Positions 32,564 to 38,729 of a stretch of DNA of 64,000 nt are shown piece by piece. The first letter of the stretch is position 1, and each line of letters starts with the position of its first letter. Made by a program: the position numbers and the translations under genes. The notes below the pieces were generated by a model that was not told the origin of the DNA, searched no databases, and was given only the letters and a program-made list of their open reading frames with translations. Location of the stretch: contig NZ_CP094264.1 of assembly GCF_023614235.1 (NCBI RefSeq), forward strand, positions 4,464,001 through 4,528,000, given 5' to 3'. Source of the DNA: Streptomyces sp. MRC013 (GTDB lineage Bacteria > Actinomycetota > Actinomycetes > Streptomycetales > Streptomycetaceae).

Positions 32564-32635
32564 GGGCCGGTGGGCATTCGGCTCCCGCGCGAGGTGCGCG
32601 GGGGCAACCGGAAGCCAAGAAGGCAGGAACAAGCT

Positions 32636-33361
32636 ATGCGACAGGTCACGCGCAAGGGCCTGACCATTGTGGCGGCGGCGGGCGGCGTACTCGCCCTCGG
32701 CGGCTACGCCCACGCGGCGACGGGGGCCGGGGCGGACGGCGCCGCGGTCAACTCCCCGGGTGTCGCCTCGGGCAACAACGTGCAGGCGCCGATCAGCGTC
32801 CCGGTGAACGTCTGCGGTAACACCGTCGACGTCGTCGGCGCGCTCAACCCGGCGTTCGGCAACAACTGCGTCAACGAGTCCGGCGGCGCGCAGGCGAACG
32901 GCTCGGCCGCCGACTCCCCGGGTGTCGCCTCGGGCAACAACGTGCAGGCACCGGTCGACGTCCCGGTGAACGCCTGCGGCAACAGCGTGAACGTGGGCGG
33001 CGCCCTGAACCCGTCCTTCGGCAACGGCTGCGCCACCGGCGCGACCCCGGACAAGCCCGGTACGCCGGACAAGCCCGATGCCCCGGGCAAGCCCGACGTC
33101 CCGAACAAGCCCGGTACGCCGGACAGGCCGGGTACGCCGGACAAGCCCGGTGCGCCGGACGGGCACGCCGGGCCCGCTGCTCCGAGCACGCCGAGCCCCT
33201 CCCCGCAGGGCGGCGCCACGCCACAGGGCGGCACCGCGCCGCAGGGCGGTGAGCAGCTCGCCGAGACCGGCGCCTCCGCGCTCGGCCTGCTGGCCCCGGC
33301 CGGCGCCGCAGCGCTCCTCGGCGGCACGATCCTCTACCGCCGCGCCCGCCGGACCGCGTAA
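32636..33361 (+). CDS. chpC: Long chaplin with sortase signal (ChpC-like)
   Basis: 241 residues: signal peptide (1-~28), two chaplin domains (~35-80 and ~90-135, each with the CGN...C pair), a Pro/Lys/Asp-rich wall-spanning stretch with many TPDKPG-type repeats (~140-195), then LAETG, a hydrophobic segment and RRARR at the end. LAXTG is the class E sortase signal of Streptomyces, so the protein is covalently attached to peptidoglycan and anchors short chaplins. No housekeeping srtE gene is adjacent. AGGCAGGAAC precedes ATG 32636. Confidence 0.95.
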   Translation: MRQVTRKGLTIVAAAGGVLALGGYAHAATGAGADGAAVNSPGVASGNNVQAPISVPVNVCGNTVDVVGALNPAFGNNCVNESGGAQANGSAADSPGVASGNNVQAPVDVPVNACGNSVNVGGALNPSFGNGCATGATPDKPGTPDKPDAPGKPDVPNKPGTPDRPGTPDKPGAPDGHAGPAAPSTPSPSPQGGATPQGGTAPQGGEQLAETGASALGLLAPAGAAALLGGTILYRRARRTA

Positions 33362-33636: not shown

Positions 33637-33683
33637 CGCATCTATTGTGCGGGCACGGCCCCGGTACGGATAGCGTCTGCGGT

Positions 33684-34346
33684 ATGTCTGATGCTGCGCA
33701 GCCCACCGCTGCCGAGGTACGCGCCGCCGCCGAGGCGGTCAAAGCCGCGCTCGACCGGCACCTGGCGGCGGTCGAGAACCGCACCGGTGACGACGACCCG
33801 GCGGTCTACGCCGCGTTCAACGACCTGGCCGCCGCGGCCGAGGCGTACGACGAGCGGCTCTACGACCGCTACGACGAGGTCACGCCCTTCGAGATCCCCG
33901 GAGCCGAGGACTCCCTGCCCCCGTACGCGGGGCCGGCCCAGCCCACCGCGCTGAGCGTGCTGATCCGCCGTGACTACGCCGTGGCGGAGCCCCAGCGGCT
34001 GCTCGCCCAGGCCCAGCGCATCGCCGACGCCGAACGCGACGACGAGACGCCGGGGGCGGCCGCCGCGGTCGGCTCCAGCGTCCACGCGGCGGTCGGCGTG
34101 CTGTTCGGCGAGTACGAACCGGACGAGATCGCCTCCCGCCACAAGGAGTTCGGCCTCGACGAGGGCGACTCCACCCTGTGGGTGGCGGCGGCCGACGAGC
34201 TGCCCGAACCGGGGGAGTGGCTCAGCACGCCCTTCGACCAGGCCGACCCGAGCCGTGTCATCTGCCGCTTCGACGTGAGCGCCGTCTTCGACGAGGACGA
34301 ACTCTACGAGGAGGACCCGAGCGGCAGGTCCCACGAACTGCCCTGA
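33684..34346 (+). CDS. Conserved acidic protein of unknown function
   Basis: 220 residues, strongly acidic, no signal peptide or membrane helix. The N-terminal 70 residues are helical (AAEVRAAAEAVKAALDRHL); the rest is mixed with no motif I recognise. The codon pattern and clean flanking terminator support it as a gene. Divergent from the DUF5703 gene. Function unknown. Confidence 0.75.
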   Translation: MSDAAQPTAAEVRAAAEAVKAALDRHLAAVENRTGDDDPAVYAAFNDLAAAAEAYDERLYDRYDEVTPFEIPGAEDSLPPYAGPAQPTALSVLIRRDYAVAEPQRLLAQAQRIADAERDDETPGAAAAVGSSVHAAVGVLFGEYEPDEIASRHKEFGLDEGDSTLWVAAADELPEPGEWLSTPFDQADPSRVICRFDVSAVFDEDELYEEDPSGRSHELP

Positions 34347-34403: not shown

Positions 34404-36551
34404 CTACTCCCCGGCCGGCTCCGCGAGGGCTTCCAGCAGGCCCCGCAGCCGCGTCACCCGCTCCCGGCCCGGCGGCTCGGCGACGGCCCGCGCCAGCGCC
34501 CGGTCGACGCCGTGGACGACCGACAGGTGCCGCTCGCCCCGGCCGAACGCCGTGTACGCCCACGCCCGGTTCAGGCCGCCCACCGCGTCGCCCGGCAGCA
34601 CCACGACCGCCGCGGGCCAGCGCATCCCGGCCGCCTGGTGCGCGGTCAGCGCCCAGCCGTGCCGCACCGCCGGCTCCACCCGGTCCTTCGGCACGACGAC
34701 CGGCTCCGGTCGCCCCTCGCAGTCGAGGTGCAGCCCCTCCGCGTCCGCCGACACCACCCGCCCCTGCAGCGTGCGGCCCGGTGCCTCCGCGTACGCCACC
34801 CGGTCGCCCGGGTCGAAGCCGCCGAAACGGCCCGGCCCCGGGTTCAACCGCTGCTTCAGCGCCGCGTTCAGCGCCCGTGTCCCCGCCGAGCCGCCGTGGC
34901 CCACCGTGATCACCTGCGTCCGCTCCGCCGGCAGGCCCAACGCCCTCGGCACCGAGTCGGCGACCAGCTGCACCGTCCGGTGCACCGCCTCGCCCGCGTC
35001 CCGTACCGGGACGATCACGACCTCCCGGCCCGGCGCGTCCACCTCGACCAGCTCGCCGGCGGCGATCCCGGACACCAGCTCCCCGATCGGTCCCGGGTCC
35101 GGCGTGCGGGACGCGATCTGCGGGCACACCCGCGCCGCCAGCAGATCCCCGAAGACCCGCCCCGCGCCGGCCGACGGCAGGACGTGCGGATCGCCGCTCA
35201 GCACCAGCCGGCAGCCGTCCGGCACGGACTCCACGAGCATCGCCGCCGTCTCCACGTCCAGCTGCGGGGCGTCCAGCACCACCAGCAGGTCGAGGGCGAA
35301 GGCCCCGTCCTCGTCCCGTCCCGGGCCCGCCGCGCCCGACAGCAGCGCCGCCACCGTGACGGCCCCCACCTCGGGGCCGAGCCTGCGGCGGCCGTTCTCG
35401 CCGTGGACCGCCACGGCCGAACGCAGCCCCAGTCCGCGCGCCGCCCCGGCCAGCGCGACCGGCTCGGCGCGCGCCGCCTCACCGCCCGTGTGCACCACCA
35501 GGCCCTGCGCGGCGACCGCCCGGGCCAGCTCCGGCGGGGCGGCCCCCGTCCAGCGCGGGTCGGGACCGGAGCGGGCCAGCCGGGACAGGCCGTCCGCGAG
35601 GCTCTCCTCGGCCAGGGCGTATCGGTCCAGGCCCAGCAGCACCGGCGGCTCCCCGGCCCCTTCCGCGTCCGCCTCCTCGTCCCCCTCGCCGCCTCCTCCG
35701 TCGTGGAAGTCCAGCACGGCACCCTCCGCGACGGCACGCCGCACGGCCTCCCCGGGGTCCGGCACGGACCGCTCGGCGAGCGCCGCCCGCACGGCCGCCG
35801 CCTCCATCGCCGTATGTCCCCGCAGCGCGGCGCGCTCCAGCAGCCAGCCCACGAGGGCGTCCGTCCGCCGCGCGTCACCGGGCCCGTCCTCCGCGCCGAG
35901 CAGTGCCCGCGCGAAGCCGTCCGCCTGCTCCGGCCGCACGCCCGGTACGGCCAGGAGCCGCCAGGGGTCCGCGCGCAACAGCGCGCCGGCCTCCTCCCCG
36001 AGCACGTCCGCGACCCGCACCGCCAGTGACTCGGGCGCGCCGCCCTCGGTCAGCACGGACCGCACGGCCCGCACGGTCTCCGGCGCCGCGCGCGGCCCGG
36101 CCGGCGTGGGCGGCCCGGTCCGCGGGGGCGCCGCGGGCGGGGGAGCGGCCCGGTGCGGCGCCGCCGCCGGGGCGGGGGAGGATTCGAACGCGACGGCCGG
36201 CTTCTCCCCGCTCTCCACGGCCCGTACCGCAGCCAGCAGGTCGGCGGCCCGCCCGCTCAGCTTGGCGCCGCTCGCGATCGGACCACCGCGTTCGGCCTTG
36301 CGGCGCTCGATCCGCTCCCGCAGCTCCCGCTGGGCCGCCAGGACGGCCTGAGCCCCGGAATCCTCCGAGGCGGACCCCGCGCCGTCCGCGTCCGTCTCCG
36401 CGCCTTTCGCGCCCTCCGCGTCCGCCCCGGGCGCCCCCGCCCCGGCGGTGGGCGCGGGCCCCGCGGTGTCCCGCTCCGGCGGGGCGGGGGCGCCCGGGGC
36501 GGTCTCGGCGGCCGGGGAGTCGGGGTTCTCTTCCCGGGGGTGCGCGGTCAC
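34404..36551 (-). CDS. RecD2-like helicase homologue lacking Walker A, predicted inactive as an ATPase
   Basis: 715 residues. An acidic disordered N-terminus (~1-150) precedes a RecD2-type helix-hairpin-helix part (ADPWRLLAVPGVRPEQADGFA) and a helicase-like core. Where RecD2 has TGGPGTGKTT this protein has TGGEAARAEP, so the P-loop lysine and threonine are gone. The Walker B/DEA position reads LDAPQLD. Yet SGDPHVLPSAGAG (motif III), ALNAALKQRLNPG, WALTAHQAAGMRWPA (HKSQG replaced) and YTAFGRGE (motif VI region) still align. The fold is kept while catalysis is lost, suggesting a DNA-binding or scaffold role. Its GTG start overlaps the stop of the aldo/keto reductase gene by four bases, so it is translated coupled to it. 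Confidence 0.75.
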   Translation of the reverse strand: MTAHPREENPDSPAAETAPGAPAPPERDTAGPAPTAGAGAPGADAEGAKGAETDADGAGSASEDSGAQAVLAAQRELRERIERRKAERGGPIASGAKLSGRAADLLAAVRAVESGEKPAVAFESSPAPAAAPHRAAPPPAAPPRTGPPTPAGPRAAPETVRAVRSVLTEGGAPESLAVRVADVLGEEAGALLRADPWRLLAVPGVRPEQADGFARALLGAEDGPGDARRTDALVGWLLERAALRGHTAMEAAAVRAALAERSVPDPGEAVRRAVAEGAVLDFHDGGGGEGDEEADAEGAGEPPVLLGLDRYALAEESLADGLSRLARSGPDPRWTGAAPPELARAVAAQGLVVHTGGEAARAEPVALAGAARGLGLRSAVAVHGENGRRRLGPEVGAVTVAALLSGAAGPGRDEDGAFALDLLVVLDAPQLDVETAAMLVESVPDGCRLVLSGDPHVLPSAGAGRVFGDLLAARVCPQIASRTPDPGPIGELVSGIAAGELVEVDAPGREVVIVPVRDAGEAVHRTVQLVADSVPRALGLPAERTQVITVGHGGSAGTRALNAALKQRLNPGPGRFGGFDPGDRVAYAEAPGRTLQGRVVSADAEGLHLDCEGRPEPVVVPKDRVEPAVRHGWALTAHQAAGMRWPAAVVVLPGDAVGGLNRAWAYTAFGRGERHLSVVHGVDRALARAVAEPPGRERVTRLRGLLEALAEPAGE

Positions 36552-37537
36552 AGGGTGCTCCAGTCCTGGTCGGGGTAGCGGTGTACGGGCGCCGACACGT
36601 CGTCCAGCGCCCTGCGGATCTCGTCAGGAAGGGTAAGGCCCTCCACCGACAGCGCCGCCGTGAGCTGCCGCGCGGTCCGCGCCCCCACCACCGGCGCCGT
36701 CACGCCCGGACGGTCCCGCACCCAGGCCAGGGCGACCTGGAGCGGCGTCACCGCCAGCCCGTCCGCCGCCGTCGCCACGGCGTCCACGACGCGCTGCGCC
36801 GACTCGTCCAGGTACGGCTCCACGAACGGCGCCATGTGCTCCGACGCGCCCCGCGAGCCGGCCGGGACGCCCTTGCGGTACTTGCCGGTCAACACGCCCC
36901 GGCCCAGCGGCGACGACGGCAGCAGGCCCACGCCCAGGTCCCGGGCGGCGGGCAGCACCTCCCGCTCCACGCCGCGCTGGAGCAGCGAGTACTCCATCTG
37001 CGCACCGGCCAGCCGCGTCCGCGCGCCCGGCGCGGACAGCTGCCACGTCGCCGCCTTGGCCAGCTGCCAGCCGCAGAAGTTCGCCACCCCCACGTACCGG
37101 GCCCGGCCGCTGGCCACCGCCGTGTCGAGGGCCTGGAGCGTCTCCTCCAGCGGCGTCCACCGGTCGTAGGCGTGCACCTGCCACAGGTCCACGTAGTCGG
37201 TGCCCAGCCGCGCCAGCGACGCGTCCAAGGCGGCCAGCAGGTGGCCCCGCGAGCCGTCGAAGCGCCGCTCGGGGTCCGGGTCGGGCACGCTCCCGGCCTT
37301 CGTGGCGATGACCAGGTCGCGGCGCGGCACCAGCCGCTCCACCAGCTGCCCCAGCAGGTACTCGGCCTCCCCGCCGCCGTACACGTCCGCCGTGTCGACG
37401 AAGGTCCCGCCGGCCTGCCAGAACGCCTTCAACTGCTCGGCCGCCTCGTGCTCGTCCGTGTCCCGCCCCCACATGAGGGTGCCCAGCCCGATCCGGGACA
37501 CGCGCAGGCCGGTGCTGCCCAGATGCCTCTGCTCCAT
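36548..37537 (-). CDS. Aldo/keto reductase
   Basis: 329 residues of TIM-barrel AKR. Catalytic tetrad is visible: Asp in FVDTADVYGGG with the Tyr of VYGG, Lys in VIATKAG, and His in WQVHAYD. NADPH-binding end has VVGARTARQL. ATG 37537 (MEQRHLGSTGL) is chosen over upstream options because the family starts there. It reduces a carbonyl; substrate unknown. It overlaps the RecD2-like gene and shares an operon with it. Confidence 0.92.
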   Translation of the reverse strand: MEQRHLGSTGLRVSRIGLGTLMWGRDTDEHEAAEQLKAFWQAGGTFVDTADVYGGGEAEYLLGQLVERLVPRRDLVIATKAGSVPDPDPERRFDGSRGHLLAALDASLARLGTDYVDLWQVHAYDRWTPLEETLQALDTAVASGRARYVGVANFCGWQLAKAATWQLSAPGARTRLAGAQMEYSLLQRGVEREVLPAARDLGVGLLPSSPLGRGVLTGKYRKGVPAGSRGASEHMAPFVEPYLDESAQRVVDAVATAADGLAVTPLQVALAWVRDRPGVTAPVVGARTARQLTAALSVEGLTLPDEIRRALDDVSAPVHRYPDQDWSTL

Positions 37538-37676
37538 GGCCGCGAGATTACTGGCCGGGGGCACGGGCCGAGGGACCCTGTGGACAACGCGCCCGACGGG
37601 CCCGCTGCCCCGGCGGCCGCCCGCGCGCTAGAGTCCGCACACCACGGACGTTACTGATCGGTAAAAGGGGATCGGC

Positions 37677-38729
37677 ATGCGGCTCGGCATCAACCTCGGC
37701 TACTGGGGGGCGGGCATGGACGGCGACAACCTCGCCGTCGCCAGGGAGGCGGACCGCCTCGGCTACGACGTGTGCTGGGCCGCCGAGGCGTACGGCTCCG
37801 ACGCGCCCACCGTCCTCGCCTGGGTCGCCGCCCGGACCTCGAACATCGACGTCGGTTCGGCGATCATGCAGATCCCGGCGCGCCAGCCGGCCATGACCGC
37901 CATGACGGCCGCCACCCTCGACTCGCTGTCGGACGGCCGCTTCCGCCTCGGCCTCGGCGTGTCGGGCCCGCAGGTGTCCGAGGGCTGGTACGGGGTCGCG
38001 TTCGACAAGCCGCTCTCGCGCACCCGCGAGTACGTCGAGATCGTGCGCAAGGCCATGTCCCGCGAGCGCCTCGTCCACGACGGCGAGCACTGGACCCTGC
38101 CGCTGCCCGGCGGCCCCGGCAAGCCGATCAGGCTGACCGTCCACCCGCGACGCGAGCGCATCCCGCTCTACATCGCCGCCATCGGGCCCAGGAACCTCGA
38201 ACAGACCGGCGAGATCGCCGACGGCGCGCTGCTCGTCTTCGCCTCGGCCGCCCACCTGGAGGAGACCGCCCTGCGGCACGTCCGCGCCGGACGCCGGAAG
38301 GCCGGGCTGACCATGGACGGCTTCGACGTCTGCCCCACCGTCCCGCTCGCCGTCGGCGACGACGTCCACGCCCTCGCCGACGTCTTCCGCCCCCACACCG
38401 CCCTGTACGTCGGCGGCATGGGCAGCCGCCGGCAGAACTTCTACAACCGGCTCGCCCGGAGCATGGGGTACGAGAAGGAAGCCGCCGAGATCCAGGACAG
38501 GTACCTCGCCGGCGACAAGCACGGCGCCGCCGCGGCCGTGCCGCACCGGCTGATCGACGACACGACGCTGCTCGGCCCCGTCGAGCGGATCGCGGACCGG
38601 ATGCGGGAGTACGCGGCGGCCGGCGTCACCACCCTCACCCTGACCCCCGCCGGCTCCACCCTCGACGAGCGGATCGCCGCGCTGCGCGCCGGCACCGAGG
38701 CGCTGGAGCGCGCCGGCCTCGCCGGCTGA
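37677..38729 (+). CDS. LLM-class F420-dependent oxidoreductase
   Basis: 350 residues, luciferase-like TIM barrel. Seen: LGINLGYWG start, GSAIMQIPARQP, RFRLGLGVSGPQVSEGW, and PLYIAAIGPRNLEQTGEIADG. This subgroup in actinobacteria uses cofactor F420 rather than FMN, by family analogy. Its start is 139 bases from that of the divergent aldo/keto reductase gene. No F420-biosynthesis gene adjoins it. Confidence 0.9.
   Translation: MRLGINLGYWGAGMDGDNLAVAREADRLGYDVCWAAEAYGSDAPTVLAWVAARTSNIDVGSAIMQIPARQPAMTAMTAATLDSLSDGRFRLGLGVSGPQVSEGWYGVAFDKPLSRTREYVEIVRKAMSRERLVHDGEHWTLPLPGGPGKPIRLTVHPRRERIPLYIAAIGPRNLEQTGEIADGALLVFASAAHLEETALRHVRAGRRKAGLTMDGFDVCPTVPLAVGDDVHALADVFRPHTALYVGGMGSRRQNFYNRLARSMGYEKEAAEIQDRYLAGDKHGAAAAVPHRLIDDTTLLGPVERIADRMREYAAAGVTTLTLTPAGSTLDERIAALRAGTEALERAGLAG

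Follow-up and report, generated by a model that had tools for sequence, protein, structure and literature searches.

A gene of Streptomyces sp. MRC013, at positions 34404..36551 on the minus strand of the 64,000-nucleotide stretch of contig NZ_CP094264.1 that we analysed (the window), encodes a 715-residue protein that has a profile match to Deinococcus radiodurans RecD2 but has lost its ATPase motifs. We consider it likely that this protein is a conserved pseudohelicase, that is, that an ancestral helicase of the RecD2 kind lost its ATP site and that its descendants act by binding. The ancestor would have been an actinobacterial SF1B helicase, RecD2-like yet distinct, encoded downstream of an aldo/keto reductase (AKR) gene, and the loss of the ATP site, in the simplest case a single event, would predate the divergence of the Streptomyces and Nocardiopsaceae lineages. 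The descendants would have kept the fold, mostly the neighbouring genes, and a surface to which the HHH domain, a family-specific helix of domain 2A (residues ~521–538) and the C-terminus contribute. The gene starts with GTG and lies where an earlier note on this DNA had placed it, on the same strand and with the same length.

Loss of the helicase motifs and its conservation in Streptomyces

Three motifs that the earlier note had read as lost are indeed degenerate (all features within the gene lie on the minus strand). Motif I (Walker A) is TGGEAARAEP (residues 355–364; 35460..35489), with Ala362 at the position of the lysine; motif II (Walker B) is LDAPQLD (residues 426–432; 35256..35276), with Asp427 kept and Ala428 at the position of the glutamate; and motif V, by motif comparison, is HQAAG (residues 638–642; 34626..34640). 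Motifs Ia and IV are likewise changed. The protein thus has neither the Walker A GxxxxGK[ST] nor the Walker B DE of a catalytic RecD2, and a Walker A hidden elsewhere is ruled out, as no GK[ST] occurs anywhere in it. What is kept in Streptomyces is Asp427, the GD of motif III (region VLSGDPHVLPSAGAGR, residues 450–465; 35157..35204, where Val replaces the Gln of intact members), Arg482 in the remnant of motif IV (residues 481–483; 35103..35111) and Arg671 in the motif VI region (residues 664–674; 34530..34562), all of them invariant in 81 Streptomyces sequences. From its sequence, we infer that the protein has neither ATPase nor unwinding activity.

The loss is conserved across Streptomyces orthologues, a check that the earlier note had proposed. 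We aligned 118 sequences, including the window's own, from the best 120 of 4,482 homologues (two shorter than 600 residues were left out), and the organism names among these 120, where given, are all Streptomyces. TGGEAARAEP occurs in 79 of the 118 and VVLDAPQLDV in 91, and the lysine position of motif I holds mostly Ala, otherwise Gly, Ser, Thr, Glu or Arg; stray GK[ST] motifs, found in 11, lie in the head, the N-terminal helices or linkers and never at motif I. Across 81 coding sequences, those of the window and of 80 named Streptomyces loci (the best 80 of 291 confirmed, every title Streptomyces and hence uninformative on breadth), G356, G357, R361, E363 and D427 are invariant with varying codons. 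The ratio of non-synonymous to synonymous substitution rates (dN/dS) of the core, a simple NG86 estimate over about the last 466 codons and within Streptomyces only, has a median of 0.21 (0.14 to 0.41) over 25 close pairs, compared to 0.17 for the neighbouring reductase, whose frames were taken from stop to stop. A gene whose motifs are lost clade-wide is therefore under purifying selection, as measured in Streptomyces, and conservation and dN/dS together rule out a recent mutant, a pseudogene or a sequencing artefact.

Across the order, 29 of 31 sampled genomes have a weak HHH match like that of the window, and all 31 have an HHH match of RecD2 strength. Of the 28 weak matches besides that of the window, we fetched 16, and all are family members, 3 of them from Streptomyces and 13 from outside the genus.

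A RecD2-like family with apparently catalytic members

By profile comparison, the relationship of the protein to RecD2 is beyond chance. Its score against the RecD2 model TIGR01448 is 105 bits (E 2.3e-30), far below the cut-off of 500, and D. radiodurans RecD2 matches the profile of the AKR-linked family, to which we assign the window protein, with E 2.2e-76. In Pfam, HHH_RecD2 matches residues 159–247 (35811..36077; E 1.1e-9), AAA_30 and UvrD_C_2 fall slightly below their cut-offs and no model matches before residue 159. With RecD2 (SF1B; D. radiodurans RecD2, PDB 3E1S, 3GP8 and 3GPL), the best structural match, the protein shares the HHH domain, the helicase fold and the order of motifs, and modelling indicates that the fold is retained in the motor-less protein. 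The preservation over 700 residues claimed earlier overstates the span: the RecD2-like part covers roughly residues 159–709.

In front of it lie two predicted helices (residues 66–115; 36207..36356), strongly conserved in Streptomyces homologues, and a head rich in Ala, Pro, Asp and Glu (residues 1–65; 36357..36551). For these two regions only, we used a full-length structure model built with 30 Streptomyces-type sequences, which is poor overall (mean predicted local distance difference test (pLDDT) score of 58.5). The head had been described as long and acidic; it exists, but is variable and poorly conserved, has a pLDDT below 50 for residues 1–64 and is by eye merely moderately acidic. In a 21-row alignment, the rows of groups f2 and f3 have no convincing alignment to the two-helix segment.

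To place the protein relative to RecD2, we built a tree of 71 rows (58 of the family, 13 of RecD2 and paralogues as outgroup) with eight motif blocks removed, leaving out L178 (group f20, motif region masked in the stored genome), L139 (truncated at a contig end), L159 (read in two frames) and another five f3 loci (L117, L118, L121, L124 and L125). A 100/100 split divides the 13 RecD2 and paralogue rows from the 58 of the family, and the window protein falls in the family clade; it also has the R525, Q528 and R536 of the family and lies downstream of the reductase gene. The motor-less members, which in contrast to RecD2 have lost motifs I, Ia, II and V, come from f1, f2, f3, f10, f19 and f30, and the intact ones from f9, f12, f14, f16, f18 and f20; judging by how their identical or nearest proteins are named, f19 is Nocardiopsaceae and relatives, and f14 and f16 are Mycobacteriales or Frankiaceae. 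All 33 motor-less rows form one clade (100/99) inside the family, corresponding to one change of state, and constraining f19 with the intact f9, f14, f16 and f18 rows is rejected (p 0.0103). Judging from this tree, the motor was probably lost once within the family. The term helicase paralogue in the earlier note captured the RecD2 likeness and the lost motifs, but the tree does not fit a simple split from Streptomyces RecD2 followed by decay.

We found the intact members among fetched loci and among the listed matches of an HHH family search across the class, part of which we used for presence only. Those from uncultured bacteria labelled Mycobacteriales or Frankiaceae are annotated as AAA family ATPase or exodeoxyribonuclease alpha subunit and are orthologous by the tree and mostly by the upstream reductase. 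Intact members keep what the window protein does not, namely GGPGTGKS, DE[AST]S, HRQ, TVHRAQGSEW and YTA..TRA (examples being GGPGTGKSRTV, VVVDETSMLDV and TVHRAQGSEW; two members end before motif V at contig ends). In a set of 5.8 billion sequences, all 120 listed nearest proteins of an intact query have the P-loop, which is absent from 118 of the 120 listed for a Nocardiopsis query. Orthologues with an intact Walker A, which the earlier note would have taken as the mark of a recent mutant, thus exist, but they are confined to other families, which argues for an old, clade-wide loss. The sequences place the window protein in a RecD2-like family apart from RecD2 itself, other members of which appear to be catalytic.

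The same genome also encodes a RecD2 with TGGPGCGKS, its second match, which adjoins citrate synthase. This canonical RecD2 seems to be split into two frames (L002:456–2706; G000:C1, ~3654241–3656491), which may be real or a sequencing error, and the RecD2 open frame of a second Streptomyces genome (G001, L088) is short too. A further RecD2-like paralogue with an intact TGGPGCGKSH (L126–L129 and L151) occurs in f3 and f19 genomes, apart from both RecD2 and the AKR-linked family. One f19 member of the AKR-linked family (L159:3286–5137) lies in two overlapping frames and is broken or mis-sequenced.

What survived the loss

We compared conservation between 33 motor-less and 25 intact rows. At motif I, intact rows have a mean identity of 0.92 and motor-less rows one of 0.30; in the region of the 2A helix and motif IVa the values are 0.73 and 0.59, and the HHH domain shows the smallest reduction (0.55 to 0.52, a ratio of 0.96). 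The family-specific helix (residues 521–538; 34938..34991) carries R525, Q528 and R536, which are conserved in both sets and at which the commonest outgroup residues are Leu, Asp and Arg. A C-terminal signature, HLSVVHG...TRL (residues 675–702; 34446..34529), is conserved as well. The protein probably acts by binding, most likely as a nucleic-acid-associated scaffold or regulator. We give somewhat less than even credence to the idea that the HHH domain, the 2A helix and the C-terminus already served a second, ATP-independent function in the ancestor, and that nothing but this function was kept in Streptomyces, Nocardiopsaceae and their kin.

Several observations weigh against a pseudohelicase that arose once and acts by binding. 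Motor-less rows have mostly lost the basic residues of motifs I, Ia and V, and others elsewhere, and their cores have a mean net charge of −28, compared to −19 in intact rows and −3 in eight RecD2 rows, a difference that speaks against strong DNA binding; taken with the conservation pattern, it makes the surviving function more likely to reside in the HHH domain and in that part of domain 2A which is specific to the family than in the translocation groove. With the GD of motif III still present, and in Streptomyces D427, R482 and R671 as well, weak nucleotide contact is possible. Four of the 33 motor-less rows (L114, L115, L119 and L123, all f3) keep Lys-Thr at the end of the P-loop, as APGIAKT without the P-loop glycines or an acidic motif II. 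Two of the 31 genomes of the order lack a weak HHH match, one of them being 90% complete and in 980 contigs. As for the number of losses, motor-less rows are long-branched, and either group alone attaches at an unresolved fork among intact rows, so that two losses are also possible. Finally, P0225 (a protein from a metagenome-assembled genome labelled Streptosporangiales), P0355 and P0356, the latter two near the Nocardiopsis query, are intact; these three may lie close to the point of loss.

Gene neighbourhood

The aldo/keto reductase gene lies directly upstream (36548..37564, minus strand), and its stop overlaps the start of the helicase-like gene by four bases (GTGA), in line with the coupling noted earlier. 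The GTGA junction recurs in 73 of the 77 Streptomyces loci where both genes are readable. Among the 80 Streptomyces loci, 77 have the reductase and 77 the divergent F420-dependent LLM oxidoreductase (37677..38729, plus strand), which is also a neighbour in several other families. Two other families of the order have the reductase upstream at all 13 loci, and in f19 it lies within the fetched stretch of 13 of 15 loci (adjacent in 10, about 3 kb off in 3). It is upstream on the same strand at 13 of 14 intact loci of f9, f12, f14, f16 and f18, directly adjacent at 6 and at a larger or unclear distance (up to ~1.7 kb) at the other 7, and the one exception begins near a contig end. The presence of the linkage at motif-intact loci implies that it predates the loss of the motor; with the reductase in none of the 12 fetched f20 stretches, it is not family-wide.

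A consensus scan, which has little power in Streptomyces, found neither a promoter of the sigma-70 type nor a terminator close to the operon. Farther out, 78 of the 80 loci have a convergent 233-residue gene (33645–34346, plus strand) without an NCBIfam match or a Pfam match over cut-off, and 78 a long chaplin (32570–33361, plus strand) with two ChpA-C stretches and a C-terminal LAETG, which resembles a sortase signal. A plasmid origin was rejected, as none of the 67 matching plasmid records covers 80% of the protein, and so was a defence system, as PADLOC matches are only partial and several are RecD-type.

Alternative explanations

The overlap with the reductase gene in Streptomyces, and the recurrence of the reductase upstream in the two other families and in f19, would also be expected if the RecD2-like protein worked mainly as a partner or regulatory subunit of the reductase, its helicase ancestry being irrelevant to its present role. 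We regard this as unlikely, since the linkage at motif-intact loci makes it older than the loss, and since the fetched f20 stretches lack the reductase though the family-specific residues are kept in an intact set that includes f20. No more probable, in our judgement, is that the pseudohelicase tunes the canonical RecD2, for instance by competing for DNA or partners, with the motor dispensable where RecD2 is present. Each of 14 genomes with an intact member of f9, f12, f14, f16 or f18 has a single HHH match and so no RecD2 signal, and a match of RecD2 strength is present in 26 of the 29 genomes from which motor-less rows come; yet 10 of 11 f20 genomes with intact motifs have one too, and f10 and f30 (three rows) are motor-less without one, in counts that include incomplete assemblies and are uncorrected for relatedness. 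A working RecD2 may nonetheless have made the motor dispensable.

That ATP is still bound, or slowly hydrolysed, at a non-canonical site would give a reason for the invariance of D427, the motif III GD, R482 and R671 in Streptomyces, but appears highly improbable given the residues that occupy the lysine position, the invariant Glu363 at the Ser/Thr position, Ala428 in motif II and the further residues changed in other families. A conserved pseudohelicase that acts by binding thus remains our favoured reading.

Relation to known systems

The inactive helicase domains of RecC and AddB are examples of helicase folds reused for ATP-independent DNA recognition; these are parts of multi-subunit helicase–nucleases, whereas the window protein has a stand-alone SF1B-type fold. 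D. radiodurans PriA offers another likeness, with helicase motifs lost across a clade: its motifs are described as poorly conserved phylum-wide, and the protein as binding DNA and contacting DnaB without ATPase or unwinding activity (PMC4504706). It belongs to another helicase family and has a known role. As for RecD2, it was recorded in 2005 in the two Streptomyces whose genomes had been sequenced by that time, neither of which has RecBC (PMC1193525), and its N-terminal region has elsewhere been suggested to bind DNA (PMC12143592). We found no paper on the AKR-linked RecD2-like family, in a search that would miss descriptions in subscription journals.

If correct, this reading would define an ancient pseudohelicase family spread across several actinobacterial families, with catalytic relatives extant and many members beside the same reductase gene, and would add, beside Deinococcus PriA, a further bacterial helicase turned pseudoenzyme across a whole clade. 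Our results suggest that Streptomyces proteins of this family labelled ATP-dependent RecD-like DNA helicase (for example, P0003) are not ATP-dependent. Orthologues with and without the motor, often in the same neighbourhood, would form a before-and-after pair that could isolate the ATP-independent function of a RecD2-like helicase.
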